From Williamsia sterculiae (GTDB taxonomy: Bacteria; Actinomycetota; Actinomycetes; Mycobacteriales; Mycobacteriaceae): DNA of 64,000 bases. How positions within the stretch are numbered: position 1 is the stretch's first letter; each line of letters starts with the position of its first letter. The position numbers were made by a program, and so were the translations under genes. The notes under the pieces were generated by a model. It ran no database searches. It was not told where the DNA came from and saw only the letters and a program-made list of their open reading frames with translations. Positions 37,945 to 52,521 of the stretch are shown here, in pieces. The DNA lies in assembly GCF_900156495.1 (NCBI RefSeq), contig NZ_FTNT01000009.1, positions 1-64,000 on the forward strand, written 5' to 3'.

Positions 37945-40704
<2,760 letters not shown>

Positions 40705-40727
40705 TCGGCCGAACAGGAGTTCACATC

Positions 40728-41000
40728 ATGTGCCGGAACATCACCGAACTGCGCGGGTTGGCCCCGCCCGCGACCGACACCGAGATCGAGGCCGCCGCAC
40801 GTCAGTACGTGCGCAAGGTCAGCGGGATCACCAAGACCTCGTCGAACAACGAGGCCGCCTTCGAACGGGCCGTCGCCGCGGTCACCGCCGCGACTCACGA
40901 GTTGCTCGCCGAGCTGCCTCAGCGTCGGCAGCCGCCGAAGAGCGTGCCGCCGCTGCGTCGTCCGGAGGTACAGGCGCGAATCGCCGCCCGCGGCGCCTGA
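40728..41000 (+). CDS. DUF2277 protein
   Basis: A 90-aa protein matching DUF2277 (opening MCRNITELRGLAPPATDTEI, then ARQYVRKVSGI). The function of the family is unknown. AGGAG precedes the ATG. It is cotranscribed with the upstream reductase gene. Confidence 0.87.
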   Translation: MCRNITELRGLAPPATDTEIEAAARQYVRKVSGITKTSSNNEAAFERAVAAVTAATHELLAELPQRRQPPKSVPPLRRPEVQARIAARGA

Positions 41001-41008
41001 GGCCGTCA

Positions 41009-41014
41009 TACCCT
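41009..41014 (+). promoter_or_regulatory. Possible -10 (TACCCT) of the acyl-CoA synthetase gene
   Basis: TACCCT lies 26 nt before TTG 41040; a start near 41021 would give a short leader carrying GGGAGG. Confidence 0.35.
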
Positions 41015-41039
41015 GTCTCCCGGGAGGGAGGCGAGCCGG

Positions 41040-42632
41040 TTGCCGGAGACCATGCAGCAGCTGTTGAGGACGCGGGCGAGCGAGGAGACCGTCGCGGTCC
41101 GCGTCGCCGATCGTGCGCAGAGCTGGCGCGAGCACATCCGCGAGGCCGAACAGATCGCGTCCGCCATCCTCGCCATGGCCGACACGAGCCGACCGATGCA
41201 CGTGGGAACCCTGCTCGGCAACACCCCGGCGATGCTCGGTGCGCTGGCGGCCGGTGGACTGGGCGGTTTCACGCTGTGCGGCATCAACACCAGCCGACGC
41301 GGTGCCGGGCTGATCCGCGACATCCGCATCGCCGACGTCCAGATCTTGTTGGTCGACGACCGTCATCTACCTCTGCTGACGGGCCTGCCCATCGGCGACG
41401 TGCGGGTGGTGAACGTCGACAGTGGCGAATGGCACCGGCTGGTGGACCGGGCGGGGCCGTTGCGGCCGTACCGAGAGACCACCGCGACCGACGTCTTCAT
41501 GCTGATCTTCACCTCGGGTACCAGTGGGGATCCCAAGGCCGTACAGGTGTCGGAGATGATGGTGGCGATCGGGGGCACCATGTTGGCCGATCGCCTCGCC
41601 TTGAGCGGCCGCGACGTGTGCTATCTGCCGATGCCGCTGTTCCATTCGGCAGCGGTGATCGCGGGGTGGGCGACCGCTGTGGGCGCGGGCGCGACGATGG
41701 TGCCCGCCCAGTTCTCCGCGTCGGGATTCCTCGCCGACGTCAGGCGCTACTCGGTGACCTACCTGCACTACGTGGGCACGGCGCTCGCCTACATCCTCAC
41801 CACCCCGGAGCGCGACGACGACGCCGACAACCCTCTCCGAACCGCCTTCGGAAACGAGGCGTCGGACCGCGATATCGCCGACTTCGGGCGGCGCTTCGGT
41901 GTCGACGTGACCGACGGTTTCGGGTCGACCGAGAACGGTGTCATCGTGACCCGGGTCCCGGGTACGCCGCCCGGTTCGATCGGGCAGGGTCTGCCTGGCG
42001 TCGCGGTGTTCGACTCGGCGACGGTGACCGAATGCGCCGCAGCGGAATTCGATGCCGACGGAATCCTGGTGAACCCGGAGCACGCGGTCGGTGAACTGGT
42101 CAACACGACCGGCAGGGGGTTCTTCACCGGTTACTACAACGATCCCGCCGCCGAGGCCGACCGCATGCGGCACGGCATGTATTGGTCGGGCGACCTGGCT
42201 TATCGGGACGCCGGGGGCTGGATCTATCTGGCCGGGCGCACGGCGGACTGGATGCGGGTGAACGGGGAGAACCTGGCCGCCGCGCCGATCGAGCGGATAT
42301 TGCGTCGTCACCCCGCGATCAGTCAGTTGGCGGTCTATGCGGTACCCGACCCGCATATCGGTGACCAGGTGATGGTCGCCCTGGTGTTGCGACCCGGTGA
42401 GGGCATCACCACCCGGGCGTTCACCGACTTCCTTGCCGCACAGTCGGATCTGTCGCCGAACGCGTGGCCGCGGTGGGTTCGGTTCCCTCGGGAGCTGCCG
42501 GCGACGGCGACCAACAAGATCATCAAGCGTCAGCTGATCGGCGAGAGGGTCACCGTCGGCGGCGAGATGTTGTGGCAGCGTGCGGAGCGCGGCACCTCGT
42601 ATGCCGACGTGGCTGGGAGGACGCCGGTGTGA
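41040..42632 (+). CDS. Acyl-CoA synthetase (FadD-like AMP-binding)
   Basis: A 530-aa acyl-CoA ligase resembling FadD17-type proteins. It has the AMP-binding P-loop FTSGTSGDPKAVQ (from about residue 157), GFGSTENG (A5 region), YWSGDLAYRDAGGWIYLAGR (A7/A8) and the catalytic lysine region ATATNKIIKRQL. It activates a carboxylic acid, identity unknown; the adjacent carboxylase operon makes a branched acid a reasonable guess. TTG 41040 (MPETMQQLL) was chosen for its GGGAGG upstream; ATG 41052 is an alternative. Confidence 0.85.
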   Translation: MPETMQQLLRTRASEETVAVRVADRAQSWREHIREAEQIASAILAMADTSRPMHVGTLLGNTPAMLGALAAGGLGGFTLCGINTSRRGAGLIRDIRIADVQILLVDDRHLPLLTGLPIGDVRVVNVDSGEWHRLVDRAGPLRPYRETTATDVFMLIFTSGTSGDPKAVQVSEMMVAIGGTMLADRLALSGRDVCYLPMPLFHSAAVIAGWATAVGAGATMVPAQFSASGFLADVRRYSVTYLHYVGTALAYILTTPERDDDADNPLRTAFGNEASDRDIADFGRRFGVDVTDGFGSTENGVIVTRVPGTPPGSIGQGLPGVAVFDSATVTECAAAEFDADGILVNPEHAVGELVNTTGRGFFTGYYNDPAAEADRMRHGMYWSGDLAYRDAGGWIYLAGRTADWMRVNGENLAAAPIERILRRHPAISQLAVYAVPDPHIGDQVMVALVLRPGEGITTRAFTDFLAAQSDLSPNAWPRWVRFPRELPATATNKIIKRQLIGERVTVGGEMLWQRAERGTSYADVAGRTPV

Positions 42633-42643
42633 CCGCATGAAAA

Positions 42644-42685
42644 CAATCATGCTTGCTTGCTTTTTTGCGTGCGCTGTGTGAACCT
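42644..42685 (+). promoter_or_regulatory. Promoter and possible TetR site of the accA2/accD2-type operon
   Basis: In an A/T-rich pocket, TTGCTT (42657-42662) and GAACCT (42680-42685) are 17 bp apart, and the start codon follows 6 nt later, predicting a leaderless transcript. The overlapping CAATCATGCTTGCTTGC (42644-42660) is repeat-rich and may bind the TetR coded at the operon end. Confidence 0.45.
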
Positions 42686-42691
42686 CGTCGC

Positions 42692-43495
42692 ATGAGTGTG
42701 CTGTCCGCATTGGTGGACGATCTGGTCGCCGAATCCGCCTCGCTCGACGATCTGGTCGCCGACCTCGACGAGAACGCGTGGCGGACCCCGACCCCGGCCG
42801 CGGGGTGGACCATCGCCCACCAGATCGGCCATCTCTCCTGGACCGACCGCATGTCGGTCATCGCGGCCACCGACACCGAGGGATTCACCCGAGTGCTGGA
42901 ACAGGCGTTCGGCAACCCAGGAGGATTCGTCGACGAGGGCGCCGAGGTGGAAGCCGCACAGGCCTCCGACGTCATCCTGACCCGGTGGCGGGAGGCGCGC
43001 GGCCAACTCGCCGCCGCGCTGCTCGGGGCGGGAGAGGGCGTCAAACTCCCGTGGTTCGGGCCGCCGATGTCACCGGCCTCGATGGCGACCGCGCGGATCA
43101 TGGAGACCTGGGCACACGGACAGGACGTGGCGGATGCGCTCGGGGTCGGCGTCGAGCCGACCGATCGGCTGCGCGCGGTCGCTCACATCGGCGTCCGCAC
43201 CCGCGACTTCGCCTATCAGGTGAACAACAAGCCGGTGCCCGCCGCGCCCTTCCGCGTGGAACTCACCGCGCCCGGCGGCGACCTCTGGACCTGGGGTCCG
43301 CACGACGCGGACAACCGCATCACCGGCCCGGCCCTGGACTTCTGCCGCCTGGTCACCCAGCGCCGCGCCGTCGCCGATCTCGCACTGGACATCGTCGGCG
43401 ACGATGCGCGTGAGTGGTCCACCATCGCACAGTGTTTCGCGGGCCCGCCGGGATCCGGTCGCGAACCCCTGACCGCTCGAGGAGCTGAGGAATGA
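42692..43495 (+). CDS. TIGR03084-type metal-binding protein (DinB-like/maleylpyruvate isomerase fold)
   Basis: A 267-aa protein of the actinobacterial TIGR03084 family with an N-terminal DinB-like four-helix domain carrying likely metal-binding histidines ([25 protein letters not shown]). It may act as a thiol-dependent isomerase or transferase, inferred from the fold. First gene of the operon, ATG 42692. Its stop overlaps the DUF1446 start by 4 bp (ATGA). Confidence 0.8.
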
Positions 43496-45207
43496 GTATT
43501 CGGATCGGCAACGCATCGGGGTTCTACGGCGACCGGTTCGCCGCCGCTCGCGAGATGCTCGACGGTGGCGACCTCGATTACCTGACCGGTGACTACCTGG
43601 CCGAGCTGACCATGCTGATCCTCGGCCGGGACCGGATGAAGGACCCCACCCGCGGATACGCCAAGACCTTCCTGCGGCAGATGGAGGACTCCCTCGGGCT
43701 CGCCGTCGACAAGGGGGTGAAGATCGTGGTCAACGCCGGTGGTCTCAACCCCACCGGTCTGGCCACGGCGTTGCGCGAGCTGGCCGATCGGGTGGGTGTC
43801 ACCGCGGCGATCGGGCAGGTCGACGGTGACGACCTGATGGACCGGGCCGCTGACCTCGGTCTCGGTACCCCGCTGACCGCGAACGCCTATCTCGGCGCGT
43901 TCGGTATCGCCGCCGCGCTCGACGCCGGTGCCGATGTGGTGGTCACCGGGCGGGTCACCGACGCATCCCTCACCGTGGGGCCCGCGGCCAGCGCATTCGG
44001 TTGGGGTGCCACCGATCTGGACCAGCTGGCCGGCGCGGTGGTCGCCGGGCACATCATCGAGTGCGGGGCGCAGGCGACCGGTGGCAACTACAGCTTCTTC
44101 ACCGAGCTGCCGAACCTGGGACGCATCGGTTTCCCCATCGCCGAGGTCGCCGCCGACGGGTCGTCGGTGATCACCAAGCACGACGGCACCGGTGGCGCGG
44201 TCACCGTCGGCACCGTCACCGCCCAACTGCTTTACGAGATCGGCGGTCCGCGCTATCTCGGACCCGATGTGACCACCCGGCTCGACACGGTCGCCCTGAC
44301 CCAGCTCGGCCCCGACCGGGTACAGGTGTCCGGGGTACGCGGTGAGGTGCCGCCGGTGGACCTCAAGGTGTCCACCAACCATCTCGCCGGTTTCCGCAAC
44401 GAGATGACCCTGGTGCTCACCGGACTCGACATCGACACCAAGGCCCGTTGGGTGCAGCAGCAGGTGGAGGAGGCCCTGTCGCCGCGGCCCGCCGACCTGC
44501 GGTGGGAGCTGGCCCGCCTCGACCAGCCCGACGCCGACACCGAGGAGCGGGCCAGCGCGTTGTTGCGCTGCGTGGTGAAGGACAACGATCCGAACACTGT
44601 CGGCCGGGCGTTCTCGTCGGTGCTCGTCGAACTGGCCCTGGCCAGCTACCCGGGATTCACCATGACCGCCCCGCCCGGCAACGGCACCCCGTTCGGGGTG
44701 TTCGAACCCCGCTACGTACCCGCCGACGAGGTGCATCACCGAGTGACCGCACCGGACGGCACCACCAGTGAGATACCGCCGAGCCCGGTGCGTGGCGACG
44801 TGCCCGCCGACGAGCCGGTCGACGCCCCGGCGTCGCCGTCGGACTGGGGCCCGACCACCGAGGCACCGCTCGGCACCGTGGTGGGCGCGCGCAGCGGTGA
44901 CAAGGGCGGCGACGCGAACATCGGTGTGTGGGTGCGCGATCCGGACCAGTTCGAGTGGCTCGACGCGACCCTGTCGGTGGCCGCACTCCGACGACTGTTG
45001 CCCGAGATCGCCGACCTCGAGGTGCGTCGCCACCGGCTGCCGAACCTGTCGGCGCTGAACTTCGTGATCTCCGGCGTCCTCGGCCGCGGGGTGGCCGACA
45101 ACGTCCGCTTCGATCCGCAGGCCAAGGGGCTCGGCGAGTGGCTGCGGTCACGCGTCGTCGAGATCCCCGAGAATTTTCTGTCCGACACGAGAGGTGCCCA
45201 CACCTGA
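43492..45207 (+). CDS. AtuA-like protein (DUF1446)
   Basis: A 571-aa protein with a large DUF1446 domain ([55 protein letters not shown]) and a C-terminal AtuA-type ferredoxin-fold domain ([16 protein letters not shown]). AtuA is required for acyclic terpene degradation in Pseudomonas, but its reaction is not known. The mycobacterial homologue sits in the same gene order with accA2/accD2. Overlaps at both ends with its neighbours (ATGA, TGATG) indicate coupled translation. Confidence 0.87.
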
Positions 45208-46358
45208 TGCCTGATCAGTGGTCCACACCGGAGCGGGTCGCGTTGCGCGAGACCGTCCGGTCCTTCACCGAGCGGCACGTGCTGCCGTACCAGAACGACT
45301 GGGAACGGGACGGACTGATCCCGCGTGAACTCCATCTCGAGGCGGGCAAACTCGGGCTGTTGGGCATCAACATGCCCGAGCAGGTCGGGGGCGCAGGTGG
45401 CGACGCGATCGACGCCTGCATCCTGGCCGAGGAGTTCCACGTCGCAGGCGGTGCGGGCGGCGTGTTCGCCTCCCTGTTCACCTGCGGCATCGCGCTGCCG
45501 CATCTGATCGCCGCCGGTGATCGGGACCAGATCGACCGCTGGGTGCGCCCCACCCTGGCCGGGGAGAAGATCGGCAGCCTCGCCATCACCGAGCCCGGTG
45601 GGGGATCCGACGTGGGTCACCTGACCACCCGTGCCGACCGCGACGGTGACCACTACGTGGTCAACGGTGCCAAGACCTACATCACCTCGGCGGTCCGCGC
45701 CGACTTCGTCGTCACCGCCGTGCGCACCGGCGGCCCCGGGGCCGCCGGCGTGTCGCTGTTGGTGATCGACAAGGACACGCCCGGTTTCACCGTGTCCCGC
45801 AAATTGGACAAGATGGGCTGGCGGGCCTCGGACACCGCGGAGCTGTCGTTCGTCGACGTCCGCGTCCCCGTGGAGAACCTCGTCGGTGTGGAGAACACCG
45901 GGTTCACCCAGATCGCGGCCGCCTTCGTCAGCGAGCGGGTGGGACTGGCCGTGCAGGCGTACGCGGGCGCCCAGCGCTGCCTCGACCTGACGCTGGCGTG
46001 GGTACGCGACCGCGAGACCTTCGGCAAACCGCTCATCAGGCGGCAGGCCGTGCAGGACAGCGTCACCGAGATGGCCCGCAAGATCGACGTGGCCCGGGTC
46101 TACACACGCGCGGTCGTCGACCGCAACGTCACCACCGGTGACGACCTGATCGCCGAGGTCTGCTTCGCCAAGAACACCGCCGTCGAGACCGGGGAGTGGG
46201 TGGCGAACAAGGCCGTTCAGCTGTTCGGCGGTCTCGGTTACATGGCCGAGTCCGAGGTGGAACGCCAGTACCGCGACATCCGCATCCTCGGCATCGGCGG
46301 TGGCACCACCGAGATCCTCACCGGTCTCGCGGCAAAACGATTGGGGTACCAGGCATGA
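45207..46358 (+). CDS. Acyl-CoA dehydrogenase, FadE13-like, isovaleryl-type base
   Basis: A 383-aa acyl-CoA dehydrogenase. The substrate loop is AITEPGGGSDVGHL. The usual C-terminal catalytic Glu (EGTxE) is replaced by IGGGTTEI, as in isovaleryl-CoA dehydrogenase, and the base is instead E243 in the SERVGLAVQ helix. This placement suits substrates branched near the beta carbon, a family-based inference. It corresponds in order to mycobacterial fadE13. Stop and start overlap its neighbours (TGATG, ATGA). Confidence 0.88.
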   Translation: MPDQWSTPERVALRETVRSFTERHVLPYQNDWERDGLIPRELHLEAGKLGLLGINMPEQVGGAGGDAIDACILAEEFHVAGGAGGVFASLFTCGIALPHLIAAGDRDQIDRWVRPTLAGEKIGSLAITEPGGGSDVGHLTTRADRDGDHYVVNGAKTYITSAVRADFVVTAVRTGGPGAAGVSLLVIDKDTPGFTVSRKLDKMGWRASDTAELSFVDVRVPVENLVGVENTGFTQIAAAFVSERVGLAVQAYAGAQRCLDLTLAWVRDRETFGKPLIRRQAVQDSVTEMARKIDVARVYTRAVVDRNVTTGDDLIAEVCFAKNTAVETGEWVANKAVQLFGGLGYMAESEVERQYRDIRILGIGGGTTEILTGLAAKRLGYQA

Positions 46359-47953
46359 CCGCACTGCGATCCACACTCGACCCCACCGGGGAGGGCTACG
46401 CGGCCGCCGCCACCTCGATGGAGGCCAAGCTCATCGAGCTGCAGGTGGAGTTCGACAAGGCGTTGGCGGGCGGCGGCGAGAAGAAGGTGCAGCGGCACCA
46501 CTCCCGCGGCAAGATGCTGGCCCGCGAACGCATCGAGCTGCTCGTCGACCCCGACACCGCCTTCCTGGAACTGTGCCCGTTGGCCGGGTACGGCTCGGAC
46601 TTCCAGGTCGGCGCCTCGCTGGTCGTCGGGATCGGGGTGGTCGAGGGGGTGGAATGCATGATCGTCGCCAACGACCCGACCGTGCGGGGCGGTACCTCCA
46701 ACCCGTGGACCCTCAAGAAGGGGTTCCGCGCCAACGAGATCGCACTGCAGAACCGGTTGCCTTGCATCTCCCTGGTGGAGTCGGGCGGGGCCGACCTGCC
46801 CACCCAGAAAGAGGTTTTCATCCCCGGTGGGCGCATGTTCCGCGACATCACCCAGCTGTCCGCGGCCGGGATCCCCACCATCGCACTGGTCTTCGGCAAC
46901 TCGACCGCCGGTGGCGCCTACATCCCCGGGATGAGCGATCACACGGTGATGATCGAGAATCGGTCCAAGGTGTTCCTGGGTGGTCCACCGCTGGTGAAGA
47001 TGGCCACCGGTGAGGAGAGCGACGACGAGTCGTTGGGCGGAGCCCAGATGCACGCCCGCCAGTCGGGTCTGGCCGACTACTACGCCCAGGACGAACAGGA
47101 CGCGGTGCGCATCGGCCGACGGATCGTCGCCCGGCTGAACTGGCACAAGAAGGGCCCCGGCCCGATTGCCCCGTCCGTCGAGCCGCGCTACGACCCCGAG
47201 GAACTGCTCGGCATCGTCCCGGCGGATCTCAAGATCCCGTTCGACCCCCGCGACGTGATCGCCCGGGTGGTCGACGACTCCGACTTCGACGAGTTCAAGT
47301 CCGAGTACGGGTCGTCGCTGGTCACCGGATGGGCGCGGATCCACGGGTACCCGGTGGGCATCCTGGCCAACGCCCAGGGCGTGCTGTTCAGCCAGGAGGC
47401 GCAGAAGGCGACCCAGTTCATCCAGCTGGCCAACCGCAGCGACACCCCACTGTTGTTCCTGCACAACACCACCGGCTACATGGTCGGCAAGGAGTACGAG
47501 CAGAACGGCATCATCAAGCACGGCTCGATGATGATCAACGCGGTCTCCAACTCCACCGTGCCACACATCTCGCTGCTGGTGGGCGCGAGTTACGGTGCCG
47601 GTCACTACGGCATGTGCGGGCGCGCCTACGACCCCCGCTTCCTGTTCGCCTGGCCCAGCGCGAAGTCGGCGGTCATGGGGGCCGCGCAGTTGGCCGGGGT
47701 GATCTCGCTGGTGTCGCGGGCGGCCACCGAGGCCCGCGGCGGCACCGTCGACGAGGCCGCCGACGCGGGGATGAAACAGATGATCGAGGCGCAGATCGAG
47801 AAGGAGTCGGTCCCGGCGTTCCTGTCCGGGATGCTCTACGACGACGGCATCATCGATCCCCGCGACACCAGGACCGTGCTGGGGCTGTGCCTGTCGACCA
47901 TCGACAACACGCCGGTCGAGGGGACGTCCAACTTCGGCGTCTTCCGGATGTGA
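46355..47953 (+). CDS. accD2: Acyl-CoA carboxylase carboxyltransferase (AccD2-like)
   Basis: A 532-aa carboxyltransferase (beta) subunit of a biotin-dependent acyl-CoA carboxylase, of the 3-methylcrotonyl/geranyl-CoA type rather than the propionyl-CoA type (LVESGGADLPTQKEVFIPGG, NSTAGGAYIPGMSDHTVM, LLVGASYGAGHYGMCGRAY). It pairs with the biotin carboxylase coded 7 bp downstream. Substrate is inferred from neighbours: a 3-methyl-branched enoyl-CoA. Order matches mycobacterial accD2-accA2. Confidence 0.9.
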   Translation: MTALRSTLDPTGEGYAAAATSMEAKLIELQVEFDKALAGGGEKKVQRHHSRGKMLARERIELLVDPDTAFLELCPLAGYGSDFQVGASLVVGIGVVEGVECMIVANDPTVRGGTSNPWTLKKGFRANEIALQNRLPCISLVESGGADLPTQKEVFIPGGRMFRDITQLSAAGIPTIALVFGNSTAGGAYIPGMSDHTVMIENRSKVFLGGPPLVKMATGEESDDESLGGAQMHARQSGLADYYAQDEQDAVRIGRRIVARLNWHKKGPGPIAPSVEPRYDPEELLGIVPADLKIPFDPRDVIARVVDDSDFDEFKSEYGSSLVTGWARIHGYPVGILANAQGVLFSQEAQKATQFIQLANRSDTPLLFLHNTTGYMVGKEYEQNGIIKHGSMMINAVSNSTVPHISLLVGASYGAGHYGMCGRAYDPRFLFAWPSAKSAVMGAAQLAGVISLVSRAATEARGGTVDEAADAGMKQMIEAQIEKESVPAFLSGMLYDDGIIDPRDTRTVLGLCLSTIDNTPVEGTSNFGVFRM

Positions 47954-47960
47954 GGAACCC

Positions 47961-49952
47961 ATGACCACCACAGACATCACCTCGGTACTCGTCGCCAACC
48001 GCGGCGAGATCGCGCGACGGGTCTTCCACACCTGCCGCGAACTCGGCATCGGCACGGTCGCGGTGTTCTCCGACCCCGACGCCGACGCGCCGCACGTCCG
48101 GGAGGCCGACGTCGCGGTGCGGCTGCCGGGTTCCACCTCCGCCGAGACCTATCTGCAGCCGACGGCGCTGATCGCCGCGGCACGGTCCGCCGGTGCCGAC
48201 GCGATCCATCCGGGCTATGGATTCCTGTCGGAGAACGCCGGCTTCGCACAGCAGGTGATCGACGCCGGGTTGGTCTGGATCGGACCGACCCCCAAGGCGA
48301 TCGACGCGATGGGCTCCAAGGTCAACGCCAAACAGATCATGGGCGCCGCCGGGGTGCCGCTGCTCGGTGACCTCGACCCGGAGACGGTGACCGAGGCCGA
48401 CCTGCCGGTGCTGATCAAGGCCTCGGCGGGTGGCGGGGGACGCGGTATGCGCATCGTTCGCGACCTCGCAGAATTGCCCGACCAACTCGAGGGTGCACGT
48501 CGCGAGGCCCAGTCGGCCTTCGGCGACGCGACGGTGTTCTGCGAGCCGTACGTCGAACGCGGCCACCACATCGAGGTGCAGGTGCTCGCGGACACCGCGG
48601 GCACGGTGTGGGCGGTGGGCGAGCGGGAATGCTCCATCCAACGTCGTCATCAGAAGGTGGTGGAGGAGGCGCCGGCACCGCTGGTGGAACGCATCGGGGG
48701 TGAGCTGCGGACGTCGCTGTACTCCGCCGCCCGAGCGGCGGCCGAGGCCATCGGCTACCAGGGTGCGGGCACGGTGGAATTCCTGGCCGACGATGCCGGC
48801 CGGTTCTGGTTCCTGGAGATGAACACCCGGCTGCAGGTGGAACACCCGGTCACCGAGGCGACCACCGGCCTCGACCTGGTGCAGTGGCAGCTGCGGGTCG
48901 CCGCCGGTGAATCGTTGGTCGGCGAGCCGCCACACGCGACCGGTCATGCCATCGAGGTCCGGCTCTACGCCGAGGACCCGGCCGCCGACTGGCAACCGCA
49001 GTCGGGGACCGTGACCCGTTTCGAGATCGAGTCCGACAGTCGGTTCGGGCCGTTGTCGCGGGCAGGCATCCGGGTCGACAGCGGGGTGCGCGACGGCAGC
49101 GAGATCTCTACCTTCTACGACCCGATGCTGGCCAAGGTCATCAGCTGGGCGCCCACCCGGCGGCAGGCGGCCGCCCGGCTGGCCACCGCGCTGCAACGGG
49201 CGCGGTTGCACGGACTCACCACCAACCGCGACATGCTGATCAACACCCTGCGCAACCCGCTGTTCCTGGCCGGTGACACCGACACCGGGTTCATCGACAC
49301 CGTCGGTCTGGGGGTGTTGTCCGCCCCGCTGGCCGACGCCGACGAGACCCGACGCGCGACCATCGCCGCGACGCTGGCGACGGCCGCGGCGCACCGCAGC
49401 ACGGCAGGTGTACAGCGCGACCTGCCCGCGGGGTGGCGCAACCTGTTCTCCGCGCCCGCTCGGCGCCGGTTCCTGCTCGGTGACGACGAGGTGGAGGTGG
49501 CGTACCGGTTCACCCGCACCGGCGTCACCCTGCCCGACGACCCGGGTGTCGAGGTGGTCGCCGCGACCCCGGATCAGGTGGTGATCGACGTCGACGGACT
49601 GCGTCGGCACTACGACGTGGCGATCGTCGGTGACCGTATCGATGTCGACGGGGTGTCCGGGTCGGTGACCCTGACCGAGGTGCCGCGATTCGTCGACCCG
49701 AACGCGGTGGAACGACCCGGATCGCTGTTGGCGCCGATGCCCGGCGCGGTGATCAGGGTCGCGGTCGAGCAGGGTGATCACGTCACCGCGGGACAACCGC
49801 TGCTGTGGATGGAGGCGATGAAGATGGAGCACACCATCGCCGCGCCGGCCGACGGGGTGGTCACCGTGCTGTCGGCGCAACCAGGACAACAACTCGCGGT
49901 GGGGGACGTGCTCGCCGTCATCACCGGACACGACGAGGAAGAGAACGCATGA
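47961..49952 (+). CDS. accA2: Acyl-CoA carboxylase biotin carboxylase/BCCP subunit (AccA2-like)
   Basis: A 663-aa alpha subunit with biotin carboxylase (ATP-grasp; VLIKASAGGGGRGMRIV, EMNTRLQVEHPVTE) in residues 1-450, a linker, and a C-terminal biotinyl domain with EAMKMEH (biotinylated K621). It carboxylates biotin for the AccD2-like partner. Gene order and spacing place it with the FadE genes and hydratase in one pathway. The stop overlaps the next start by 4 bp (ATGA). Confidence 0.92.
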   Translation: MTTTDITSVLVANRGEIARRVFHTCRELGIGTVAVFSDPDADAPHVREADVAVRLPGSTSAETYLQPTALIAAARSAGADAIHPGYGFLSENAGFAQQVIDAGLVWIGPTPKAIDAMGSKVNAKQIMGAAGVPLLGDLDPETVTEADLPVLIKASAGGGGRGMRIVRDLAELPDQLEGARREAQSAFGDATVFCEPYVERGHHIEVQVLADTAGTVWAVGERECSIQRRHQKVVEEAPAPLVERIGGELRTSLYSAARAAAEAIGYQGAGTVEFLADDAGRFWFLEMNTRLQVEHPVTEATTGLDLVQWQLRVAAGESLVGEPPHATGHAIEVRLYAEDPAADWQPQSGTVTRFEIESDSRFGPLSRAGIRVDSGVRDGSEISTFYDPMLAKVISWAPTRRQAAARLATALQRARLHGLTTNRDMLINTLRNPLFLAGDTDTGFIDTVGLGVLSAPLADADETRRATIAATLATAAAHRSTAGVQRDLPAGWRNLFSAPARRRFLLGDDEVEVAYRFTRTGVTLPDDPGVEVVAATPDQVVIDVDGLRRHYDVAIVGDRIDVDGVSGSVTLTEVPRFVDPNAVERPGSLLAPMPGAVIRVAVEQGDHVTAGQPLLWMEAMKMEHTIAAPADGVVTVLSAQPGQQLAVGDVLAVITGHDEEENA

Positions 49953-51127
49953 ACGCAGTGACCGAGACCAACCCGTTCGCCGAGACCGAGGAGCGGGCCG
50001 CGCTGCGCGCATCCGTTGCGGGCCTGGCCAAGCGCTACGGCCAGGAGTACTTCCTGGCCTGCGCCCGGGAGGGTCGTAAGACCGACGAGATGTGGAACGA
50101 GGCAGGCAAGCTCGGCTTCATCGGCGTCAACCTGCCCGAGGAGTACGGCGGCGGCGGGGCGGGAATGTACGAACTCGCCATCGTCATGGAGGAGATCGCG
50201 GCGGCGGGCACCGGTCTGCTGATGCTGGTGGTCTCGCCGGCGATCTGCGGCAACATCATCGCCCGCTTCGGCACCGACGACCAGAAGCAGCGTTGGCTGC
50301 CGGGTCTGGCCGACGGCAGCATCACCATGGCGTTCAGCATCACCGAACCCGACGCCGGATCGAACTCGCACAAGATCACCACCACCGCCAAGCGGGACGG
50401 CGACGAGTGGTTGCTCACCGGGCGCAAGATCTACTGTTCGGGTGTCGACCAGGCCGACGCGGTGCTGGTGGTCTCGCGGACCGAGGACGCCAAGACCGGC
50501 AATCTCAAACCGGTGTTGTTCATCGTCCCCACCGACGCACCGAACTTCGAGTACAAGCAGATCGACATGGATCTGGTGAACCCGGAGAAGCAGTTCCTGC
50601 TGTTCCTCGACGACGTGCGGCTGCCCGCGGATGCCCTGGTGGGATCCGAGGACGCCGCGATCGGCCAGCTGTTCGCCGGGCTGAACCCGGAACGGATCAT
50701 GGCGGCCGCCTCGGCGATCGGGATGGCCCGGTTCGCCCTCGACAAGGCGGTCCGCTACGTCAACGATCGCACGGTGTGGAAGCAGCCCATCGGCGCGCAC
50801 CAGGCCATCGCGCACCCGCTGGCGCAGGGCAAGATCGAGCTGGAGATGGCCAAGCTGATGATGCAGAAGGCCGCGACGCTGTACGACGCGGGCGACGACT
50901 GGGGTGCCGCGGAACCGGCGAACATGGCCAAGTACGCGGCCGCCGAGGCCGCGGTGAAGATCGTCGACCACGCCGTGCACTCGATGGGTGGCAACGGGCT
51001 GAGCAGCGAGTACGGGATGGCGCCGTTGCTCTCGCTGGCGCGGATCGCCCGGGTGGCCCCGGTCAGCCGCGAGATGATCCTCAACTTCGTCGCGCAGACC
51101 AGCCTCGGCCTGCCCAAGTCGTACTGA
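49949..51127 (+). CDS. Acyl-CoA dehydrogenase, FadE12-like
   Basis: A 392-aa acyl-CoA dehydrogenase distinct from the first in the operon. Motifs: FSITEPDAGSNSHKI and IMEEIAAAGTGLLMLV. It lacks the C-terminal EGT Glu (RIARVAPVSREMI) and has E248 in NPERIMAAAS, so it too uses the isovaleryl/long-chain-type base position. Two such dehydrogenases suggest two oxidations of one branched substrate or two related substrates. Corresponds to fadE12 in mycobacterial order. Confidence 0.87.
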   Translation: MNAVTETNPFAETEERAALRASVAGLAKRYGQEYFLACAREGRKTDEMWNEAGKLGFIGVNLPEEYGGGGAGMYELAIVMEEIAAAGTGLLMLVVSPAICGNIIARFGTDDQKQRWLPGLADGSITMAFSITEPDAGSNSHKITTTAKRDGDEWLLTGRKIYCSGVDQADAVLVVSRTEDAKTGNLKPVLFIVPTDAPNFEYKQIDMDLVNPEKQFLLFLDDVRLPADALVGSEDAAIGQLFAGLNPERIMAAASAIGMARFALDKAVRYVNDRTVWKQPIGAHQAIAHPLAQGKIELEMAKLMMQKAATLYDAGDDWGAAEPANMAKYAAAEAAVKIVDHAVHSMGGNGLSSEYGMAPLLSLARIARVAPVSREMILNFVAQTSLGLPKSY

Positions 51128-51130
51128 GTC

Positions 51131-51928
51131 GTGGGTGATCCGGTGACCGACCTGGTGACCTACACAGTCGAGGGCGGGGTGGCGACGGTGACGCTGGACT
51201 CGCCGGCGAACCGCAACGCGCTGAGCATGTCGCTGACCGAACAGCTCACCGAGCGCTTGGCGCGGGCCGCGGCGGACGAGGCGGTGCGCGCGGTGGTGCT
51301 GACCCACACCGGCACCTCGTTCTGTGCGGGCGGTGACCTGTCCGAGGCGACCAGTCGGGGACTGTCGATCGAGGAGGCGTCCGCGGCGGGCACCCGGGCC
51401 ATGCTGGCGTTGATGCGGCAGATACTGGAACTGCCGAAGCCCGTGGTGGCCAGGCTGAACGGGCACGCCCGGGCCGGCGGCCTGGGGCTGCTGGGTGCGT
51501 GCGACGTCGTGATCGCGGGGGAGCGCAGCACCTTCGCGCTCACCGAGGTCCGACTCGGCTTGGCGCCGGCGATGATCACCCTGACCCTGCGGCCCCGGGT
51601 GGCGCCGCGGGCGCTGAACCGCTACTACCTGACCGGTGAGAAGTTCGACGCGGCCACCGCGGAACAGATCGGGCTGATCACCGAGGCCGTGGCATCGGAC
51701 GACGAGCTGGAGGCGACCGTGACGGCGATCCTCGGCGACCTGCGCAAGGGATCGCCGCAGGGACTACGGGAGAGCAAGCGACTCGTGACGGCGCCAGTGC
51801 TGGCCCACTTCGACACCGAGGGGGAGTCGCTCGCGGCGTTGTCGGGGTCGCTGTTCGCCTCGGACGAGGCGCGAGAGGGCATGATGGCGTTCCTGCAGAA
51901 GACCACCCCGCGGTGGGCAGAGACCTGA
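51131..51928 (+). CDS. Enoyl-CoA hydratase, LiuC/AtuE/EchA7-like
   Basis: A 265-aa crotonase-fold hydratase. The first usual catalytic Glu (after GGG) is replaced by Gly in RAGGLGLLGACD, while the second Glu is kept in ALTEVRLGLAPAMI. This pattern is that of 3-methylglutaconyl-CoA hydratases (LiuC) and AtuE, and of mycobacterial EchA7, supporting hydration of a carboxylated branched enoyl-CoA. GTG 51131 start. The stop overlaps the TetR gene by 16 bp. Confidence 0.87.
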   Translation: MGDPVTDLVTYTVEGGVATVTLDSPANRNALSMSLTEQLTERLARAAADEAVRAVVLTHTGTSFCAGGDLSEATSRGLSIEEASAAGTRAMLALMRQILELPKPVVARLNGHARAGGLGLLGACDVVIAGERSTFALTEVRLGLAPAMITLTLRPRVAPRALNRYYLTGEKFDAATAEQIGLITEAVASDDELEATVTAILGDLRKGSPQGLRESKRLVTAPVLAHFDTEGESLAALSGSLFASDEAREGMMAFLQKTTPRWAET

Positions 51929-52521
51929 CCGCGGTCCGGGAACCGAAGCAGGACCGCTCACGGGCGACTCGTGAGCGGTTGCTCTCGTCGACCATCGAAC
52001 TGCTGGCGCGCCGCGGCTGGGACGCGTCGACGGTGTCGACGGTGGCCGCGGCGGCGGGCGTCTCGCGGGGCGCCGCGCAGCACCACTTCCCGACCAGGGA
52101 GGCATTGATCACCGCCGCGCTGGAGCAGGTGTTCGAGGAGATGACCCAGCGGATCCGCGAGGTCAGCCAGACCCTGCCCGACGGACCGGCCCACATCCAC
52201 GCGGTGGTGGAACGGGCCGTCGACATCTACACCGGCATGGAGTTCAAGGCCGCTCTGCAGGTCTGGGCCGCGGCCGCATCCGACTCGGCGTTGCGCGACC
52301 TCATCCTGCCGTTGGAGGGCAAGTTCGCCCGGGCCGCGCACCGGTACACGATGGTCGCGCTCGGCGTGGATCCCGACGACGTCCAGGCGCACCGTCTGGT
52401 GCAGGCCACCCTCGACCTCGCGCGCGGGCTGGGTCTGGCCGACACCCTCTCCGACGACTCGGCCCGTCGGGCCCAGGTGATCGACACCTGGTCGCGGCAA
52501 CTGGCGCTGGCGCTGGCCTGA
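51913..52521 (+). CDS. TetR-family regulator at the end of the carboxylase operon
   Basis: A 202-aa TetR-type repressor: HTH residues about 20-65 (TVAAAAGVSRGAAQHHF) and a ligand domain. It overlaps the hydratase gene by 16 bp, so it is made with the pathway enzymes and is the natural candidate to sense an acyl-CoA intermediate and control the operon promoter near 42644-42685. Start GTG 51913; other starts possible. Confidence 0.85.
   Translation: MGRDLTAVREPKQDRSRATRERLLSSTIELLARRGWDASTVSTVAAAAGVSRGAAQHHFPTREALITAALEQVFEEMTQRIREVSQTLPDGPAHIHAVVERAVDIYTGMEFKAALQVWAAAASDSALRDLILPLEGKFARAAHRYTMVALGVDPDDVQAHRLVQATLDLARGLGLADTLSDDSARRAQVIDTWSRQLALALA

Follow-up and report, generated by a model that had tools for sequence, protein, structure and literature searches.

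Layout and occurrence of the operon

The DNA investigated was a stretch of 64,000 nt from Williamsia sterculiae (GCF_900156495.1, contig NZ_FTNT01000009.1), hereafter the window, whose positions are used for all coordinates. It contains an operon of eight plus-strand genes (42692-52521), among them atuA and the acyl-CoA carboxylase genes accD2 and accA2, placed directly upstream of rpsL, rpsG and fusA, which were recognised by eye from their translations. The features are listed in Table 1. A sequence-only reading of this DNA had proposed an eight-gene operon of these families, and both the family matches and a check of the junctions agreed with it. The 4-bp and 1-bp overlaps that it described were found at four of the seven junctions, i.e. 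4 bp for dinB/atuA, 1 bp for atuA/acad1 and 4 bp each for acad1/accD2 and accA2/acad2; the remaining three were equally tight, with gaps of 7 bp for accD2/accA2 and 3 bp for acad2/ech (GTG start) and an overlap of 16 bp for ech/tetR (GTG start), so that every junction was overlapping or near-touching. The first-gene start given there, 42644, was wrong, as it falls inside a conserved palindrome, and the conserved start is the ATG at 42692.

Table 1. The operon and its features in window positions
Feature	Position	Strand	Basis
Candidate TetR operator, imperfect palindrome	42640..42663		29 bp before first-gene start; motif conservation across loci
TIGR03084 / MDMPI-architecture protein ("DinB-fold" gene); candidate mycothiol-dependent isomerase or S-transferase	42692..43495	+	Family match, metal site, model
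AtuA (PF07287 and AtuA_ferredoxin PF23544); candidate acetate-releasing lyase	43492..45207	+	Pfam, model fold, profile
Acyl-CoA dehydrogenase 1, base Glu243; solved chain 3oib a strong match	45207..46358	+	Pfam, alignment
AccD2, carboxyltransferase beta subunit, GCC-type Gly158	46355..47953	+	Pfam, alignments, tree
Gly158 codon, opposite MCC Phe191 / GCC Gly162; MCC three-residue insertion before it absent	46826..46828	+	Alignment; rule of PMC4673880
AccA2, biotin carboxylase, BT domain and biotinyl domain (Lys621)	47961..49952	+	Family matches, alignment
Acyl-CoA dehydrogenase 2, base Glu248, without EGT motif	49949..51127	+	Pfam, alignment
Enoyl-CoA hydratase (NF005879 family), Glu139 and Gly119	51131..51928	+	Family model, alignment
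TetR-family regulator, candidate local repressor	51913..52521	+	Family match; co-presence with palindrome
MDMPI, mycothiol-dependent maleylpyruvate isomerase; MCC, 3-methylcrotonyl-CoA carboxylase; GCC, geranyl-CoA carboxylase.

The closest named relatives among the matches listed were Gordonia and Williamsia. AtuA occurred in 71 of 396 genomes of the phylum. AccD2 (at least 600 bits, three candidates being scored per genome) was present in 61 of these 71 genomes, compared with 4 of the 325 without AtuA; the corresponding counts for TIGR03084, the family of the first gene, were 46 of 71 and 17 of 325, and genomes were counted without regard to relatedness. In a set of 31 relatives, AtuA was found in 20, all of which had AccD2 (46-51% identical to the paralogue AccD1) and 16 of which had AccD1 (at least 70% identity). 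The 11 relatives without AtuA yielded an AccD2 fragment in one, a 66%-complete genome, and AccD1 in five. Gene order was compared in named loci, i.e. the best 80 of at least 587 matches, all with an AtuA at least 62% identical to that of the window. All eight genes and their order were kept in the Gordonia, Williamsia and Rhodococcus loci; Nocardia loci kept tetR without the adjacent first gene, and mycobacterial loci had neither. Dehydrogenase 1 was missing from all eight Streptomyces loci; in seven of them dehydrogenase 2 was followed by a sequence partially matching an AMP-dependent ligase (checked with Pfam for locus L162), which suggests that a free acid is the substrate there. In Myxococcus xanthus a 62%-identical AtuA stood beside a carboxylase of the GCC clade, together with a tetR homologue and the palindrome; Pfam scans of seven open reading frames of that flank detected no dehydrogenase and no hydratase.

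The palindrome, of the form AACAAkCAwGCATGmTTGmTT, was located before the first gene. Named loci with tetR had it upstream of the operon in 45 of 45 cases and those without tetR in 2 of 35, and the contigs of the latter two (L120 and L150) end short of the tetR position. The motif had been derived without sight of 29 of the 45 loci, and every one of these contained it. None of 1600 shuffles of the upstream regions that kept dinucleotides where possible reached the palindrome threshold, and 2 of 1600 single-base shuffles of slightly longer regions did so, the number of matches expected in the window being 0.01. No second site with up to three mismatches was found in the 4.44 Mb genome and, since the palindrome is unique, the regulator looks local: from sequence, TetR is predicted to act at the palindrome before the operon. 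Promoter and terminator scans gave results at chance level only. In four named mycobacterial loci (L112, L113, L115 and L119) the TetR motif was replaced by another imperfect palindrome, CTAACC...GGTTGG, some 50-90 bp upstream of atuA, which suggests that mycobacteria use a different regulator. In Mycobacterium bovis BCG, echA7, fadE12, accA2 and accD2 (orthologues of Rv0971c-Rv0974c) drop together upon InbR overexpression and isoniazid treatment (PMC4564863).

Carboxylase pocket, AtuA fold and partner enzymes

AccD2 belongs to the gamma-carboxylating MCC/GCC lineage, as revealed by a search of solved proteins and by a beta-subunit tree. According to the rule of Jurado et al. (2015), MCC beta subunits have Phe191 after a three-residue insertion, and in GCC beta subunits the insertion is missing and Gly162 is present; GCC lost its activity on geranyl-CoA through the exchange G162F, and MCC acquired some through F191G (PMC4673880). 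In our alignments AccD2 showed Gly158 without the insertion, i.e. a GCC-type pocket in which both the Phe and the insertion of MCC are missing. The same combination was seen in all 75 AccD rows from AtuA loci (74 of the 77 loci with an AccD match passed the length filter). In the tree set, Phe and insertion were present in 7 of 7 MCC references and Gly in 3 of 3 GCC references; 20 of 23 AccD2-like proteins had Gly and none had the insertion. The AccD2-like proteins formed one clade with a support of 99-100, separate from MCC and from GCC, the latter being represented by three rows. The partner subunit AccA2 comprises biotin carboxylase, BT_MCC_alpha and a biotinyl domain with the motif EAMKM, in which Lys621 is found. 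In a genome of the same class (G023), accD2 and accA2 share one open frame of 1150 residues (L065:5455-8904, minus strand), possibly a natural fusion of the subunits. A Phaeobacter plasmid (L177, CP104101.1), where AtuA adjoins a hydratase and a carboxylase, encodes a beta subunit having both the insertion and Gly at the selectivity position; its biotin carrier is a separate gene, and this carboxylase is of an intermediate type.

A separate AccD1 with the MCC motif, to which AccD2 is 47% identical, is encoded in the same genome in a cluster with biotin carboxylase, acyl-CoA dehydrogenase, MaoC-type hydratase, HpcH/HpaI (CitE-type) lyase and ligase, which we take to be the leucine cluster from the AccD1 motif and from its likeness to the mycobacterial leucine cluster. 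It is very unlikely that AccA2/AccD2 is a spare MCC serving a second leucine or isovalerate route. The closest solved proteins to AccD2 overall are MCC, and 4 of the 20 relatives with AtuA had AccD2 in the absence of any AccD1 reaching 70% identity; AccD2, however, lacks the residues that define MCC, an MCC-type AccD1 is already present within the leucine-type cluster, and an M. smegmatis mutant deleted for accD2-accA2 grew on isovalerate like the wild type (PMC4347857). The old gene names imply an alpha-carboxylase that serves lipid synthesis with acetyl- or propionyl-CoA as its substrate, a role that deserves hardly any credence. It has annotation tradition on its side, and one of the top solved relatives, 9tps, bears the name propionyl-CoA carboxylase from its depositors and 4q0g that of "probable acetyl-/propionyl-CoA carboxylase", but both of these proteins have the MCC insertion. 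In addition, the remaining acyl-CoA carboxylase paralogues encoded in the genome share only 30-32% identity with AccD2, the operon partners of AccD2 are catabolic, and the M. smegmatis deletion brought no change in lipids (PMC4347857). Ehebauer et al. (2015) had pointed out the divergence of the pocket segment in M. tuberculosis AccD2, whose role they left open (PMC4347857). Joining that divergence to the GCC rule is a step made here by sequence comparison; in a literature search covering papers free of subscription, no paper joining the two and no substrate assignment for AccA2/AccD2 was found in the accessible texts.

AtuA matched PF07287 with 518.8 bits, compared with a gathering score of 22.8; DUF1446, the term used in the sequence-only reading, is presumably its older name. 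An AlphaFold2 model of the window AtuA (predicted local distance difference test, pLDDT, 91.2; predicted template modelling score, pTM, 0.91) was compared with solved structures, of which 9evf, "Citramalate lyase - ADP - pyruvate complex", stood out (Foldseek E 1.3e-17, next 3.8e-4; VIA Z 27.6 over 386 residues at a root mean square deviation, rmsd, of 3.5, next Z 10.5). With the AtuA family profile, 9erq/9evf ("AtuA family protein | Citramalate lyase, subunit A") was likewise the only PDB match up to E 1, and a single-sequence search of solved structures returned only arginine repressors at E 0.2-0.3. Citramalate lyase yields pyruvate and acetate, and in enterobacteria a DUF1446 gene lies beside that for methylaspartate ammonia-lyase, where the citramalate-cleaving enzyme was not known (PMC4682846). 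AtuA has also been tentatively listed as the acetate lyase of the Atu pathway (PMC4847356). Family scans recognised no other C-C lyase among the eight genes. Owing to the fold match with citramalate lyase subunit A, AtuA may supply the acetate-releasing lyase step for which no other gene of the operon is apparent; predicted fold and chemistry together support a cleavage of the same kind as that of citramalate lyase. On two sphingomonad plasmids (L172 and L179) the neighbourhood of the AtuA homologue contained no carboxylase, and in L179 the next gene was of the Coq4 family; AtuA probably also serves purposes other than gamma-carboxylation pathways.

Both dehydrogenases were without the EGT glutamate and had Glu243 and Glu248 as bases, as the sequence-only reading had stated. 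Glu243 of dehydrogenase 1 aligned with a Glu of the long-chain dehydrogenase chain 8w0t, and with Gln in chain 8w0z. It was Glu in 79 of 79 aligned rows, 12 of which probably derive from the other dehydrogenase in loci without the true one; Glu248 was Glu in 76 of 76, including 4 such rows. The probable paralogues were told by their residues at the C-terminal motif. The hydratase scored above the cut-off of NF005879. Its Glu139 was kept, and Gly119 stood at the position of the first Glu of crotonases (58 of 64 rows each), the other six rows being probably unrelated hydratases from loci without the true one; the same Gly/Glu pair is present in 3i47 and 4kpk. The residues of the active-site pattern claimed earlier were thus found, and the pattern may be that of LiuC/AtuE.

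The model of the first-gene product (pLDDT 93.7) matched MDMPI across both domains (2nsf: Z 17.2, 219 of 240 residues, rmsd 3.9; 2nsg is its H52A mutant). This match is distinguished less by its Z than by its coverage of two domains, since the next rows, at Z 15.6 or below, were helical bundles with a single domain some 150 residues long. A single-sequence search of solved structures gave nothing at E 0.1. The metal-site residues H47, E138 and H142 (His / Glu-x3-His) were invariant in 48 of 48 aligned rows. In 43 of the 114 AtuA loci examined the gene was a same-strand neighbour of atuA, and some genomes (G038 and G050) with an atuA locus devoid of it had a homologue elsewhere. In Pseudomonas, trans-geranyl-CoA is isomerised to the cis form at the start of the central pathway, no enzyme being named in the accessible text (PMC8637051). 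Because such an isomerisation exists, an E/Z isomerase is a testable guess for the modelled protein, which is no less likely to be an S-transferase or to have a protective function.

Proposed pathway and substrate

From the gene families and their order, the GCC-type pocket, the predicted citramalate-lyase fold of AtuA and the pairing of palindrome and tetR, all read from sequence or structure prediction, we infer which reactions take place and in what order, that TetR is a repressor, and the class of substrate. The operon probably encodes an Atu-type pathway for beta-methyl-branched acyl-CoAs larger than isovaleryl-CoA, in which the substrate is dehydrogenated, gamma-carboxylated and hydrated, and acetate is released. 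One or both dehydrogenases would convert a 3-methyl-branched acyl-CoA of that size to the 3-methyl-2-enoyl-CoA, AccA2/AccD2 would carboxylate its methyl (gamma) carbon, and the hydratase would add water to give a 3-hydroxy-3-alkylglutaryl-CoA. AtuA would then release acetate and leave a 3-oxoacyl-CoA, to be split by a thiolase encoded elsewhere. The beta-methyl branch would thereby be removed so that beta-oxidation can continue. TetR would bind the palindrome before the operon and control this operon only.

The sequence-only reading had proposed a 3-methyl-branched acid distinct from leucine as substrate and an intermediate as the putative ligand of TetR, and this interpretation was supported in part. 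A beta-branched substrate other than that of leucine is the likeliest reading because AccD2 is of the MCC/GCC lineage and has GCC pocket residues, AccD1 is encoded separately, and the M. smegmatis mutant grows on isovalerate (PMC4347857). The earlier pairing with both the Liu and the Atu pathways could be narrowed: the GCC-type pocket and the AtuA partner indicate Atu, not Liu. Isoprenoid acids, e.g. citronellic, geranic, farnesoic or phytenic acid, seem the likeliest class. The same gamma-carboxylation might act on another substrate, namely another branched acid or a beta-substituted piece of a cyclic terpene, naphthenic acid or steroid, which we consider unlikely though conceivable. The window itself contains nothing that names the substrate; a Dietzia plasmid carries, in the neighbourhood of AtuA and an AccD2-like carboxylase, an FAD-dependent oxidoreductase, a hydrolase and a mycofactocin-coupled short-chain dehydrogenase/reductase, and a Rhodococcus plasmid relative lies near ketosteroid-isomerase-related genes. 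These plasmid copies are, however, more distant (59-62% identity) and not orthologues of the operon, and the GCC pocket that has been solved is one for an acyclic terpenoid. A more elaborate proposal, to which we assign only a slim chance, is a self-contained module for beta-methyl excision, in which the first gene would encode a mycothiol-dependent trans-to-cis 3-methyl-2-enoyl-CoA isomerase feeding the carboxylase, and AtuA a nucleotide-binding acetate-releasing lyase.

Several observations weigh against the Atu-type pathway proposed here. No AccD2-like protein above the threshold was found in 10 of the 71 AtuA genomes, and 3 of the 23 AccD2-like proteins of the tree set had Ala (L083 and L176) or Ser (L088) instead of Gly. 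AccD2 scored higher overall with MCC (562 bits) than with GCC (494), and did not fall inside the GCC clade of three rows. Rooting the tree was tried as a means of deciding whether AccD2 is nearer to GCC or to MCC; AccD2 joined GCC in two trees, and neither alternative grouping was rejected by the approximately unbiased test (p 0.124 and 0.129; single outgroup sequence, L177 and L088 left out). In a tree that included the mis-framed row L190 the outgroup grouped with GCC and MCC. As the alternative rootings were not rejected, we claim no more than that the AccD2 clade is separate. The hydratase scored below the cut-off of the gamma-carboxygeranoyl-CoA hydratase model, and scanning the genome for the palindrome turned up no other regulon member from which the substrate could be guessed. 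The Atu intermediate is reported to be cleaved in Pseudomonas by LiuE, in which case there would be no need for an AtuA lyase. Finally, no additional peak appeared when the CoA thioesters of the M. smegmatis mutant were profiled under the conditions of that study (PMC4347857).

Just before the palindrome (39736-42632), three genes on the same strand encode an alcohol-dehydrogenase-like oxidoreductase, a DUF2277 protein and a FadD1-type acyl-CoA ligase (860.3 bits, above the model cut-off), and these may feed the pathway. Ligase and oxidoreductase were considered as operon members and rejected because the palindrome lies downstream of them and because of the placement of the ligase in the named Gordonia loci, where it was on the opposite strand about 2 kb away in three of six and was not found in the other three.

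With the Atu-type pathway as proposed, the role of mycobacterial AccA2/AccD2, open in 2015 (PMC4347857), is narrowed to beta-branched enoyl-CoAs larger than methylcrotonyl-CoA, and the operon, if read correctly, would explain the purpose of this carboxylase. The AtuA family gains a likely reaction and the operon a candidate operator, and the pocket rule would help to correct "acetyl-/propionyl-CoA carboxylase" labels.

Relation to known systems

The operon is a real system with wide conservation, and it most likely operates in the manner of the Atu pathway. With that pathway, in Pseudomonas and Thauera, it shares AtuA, a carboxylase pair with the GCC pocket, acyl-CoA dehydrogenase, hydratase, a TetR-type regulator and the proposed chemistry (PMC4847356, PMC4097962). 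It differs in its carboxylase outside the GCC clade, in having two dehydrogenases and an additional MDMPI-type first gene, and in gene order, and its AtuA showed 36% identity to the AtuA of L173, the only proteobacterial GCC-type cluster used for comparison. Family scans detected no counterparts of AtuB, AtuG or AtuH among the eight genes; for this reason, and owing to the position of the carboxylase outside the GCC clade, the operon was not filed as a strict member of the Atu group. A gamma-carboxylase, an acyl-CoA dehydrogenase and a hydratase are also common to the Liu pathway and mycobacterial AccD1-AccA1, but AccD2 is without the Phe and the insertion, and AtuA is found among the eight genes instead of a gene for 3-hydroxy-3-methylglutaryl-CoA (HMG-CoA) lyase or CitE.

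A further comparison is with the mycobacterial accA2/accD2 operon, which we take to be Rv0971c-Rv0976c in M. tuberculosis. In named loci extending far enough the order atuA-acad1-accD2-accA2-acad2-ech was shared, except that ech was missing in some and one assembly had a gap; unlike the window, these loci have no adjacent first gene, tetR or palindrome. Two of the proteins also resemble enzymes of other systems. Citramalate lyase subunit A (CmlA, 9erq/9evf) belongs to the AtuA family and has a common fold with residues 1-423 of the window AtuA (profile E 1.5e-8), and its acetate-yielding cleavage is akin to the step proposed for AtuA (PMC4682846). Identity is 16-18%, however, and the window AtuA adds the C-terminal AtuA_ferredoxin domain and would act on a CoA ester. 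The first-gene product aligns with both domains of MDMPI (2nsf) and has the His and Glu-x3-His metal-site pattern in common with it, whereas identity is about 9-15% and the substrate must differ.

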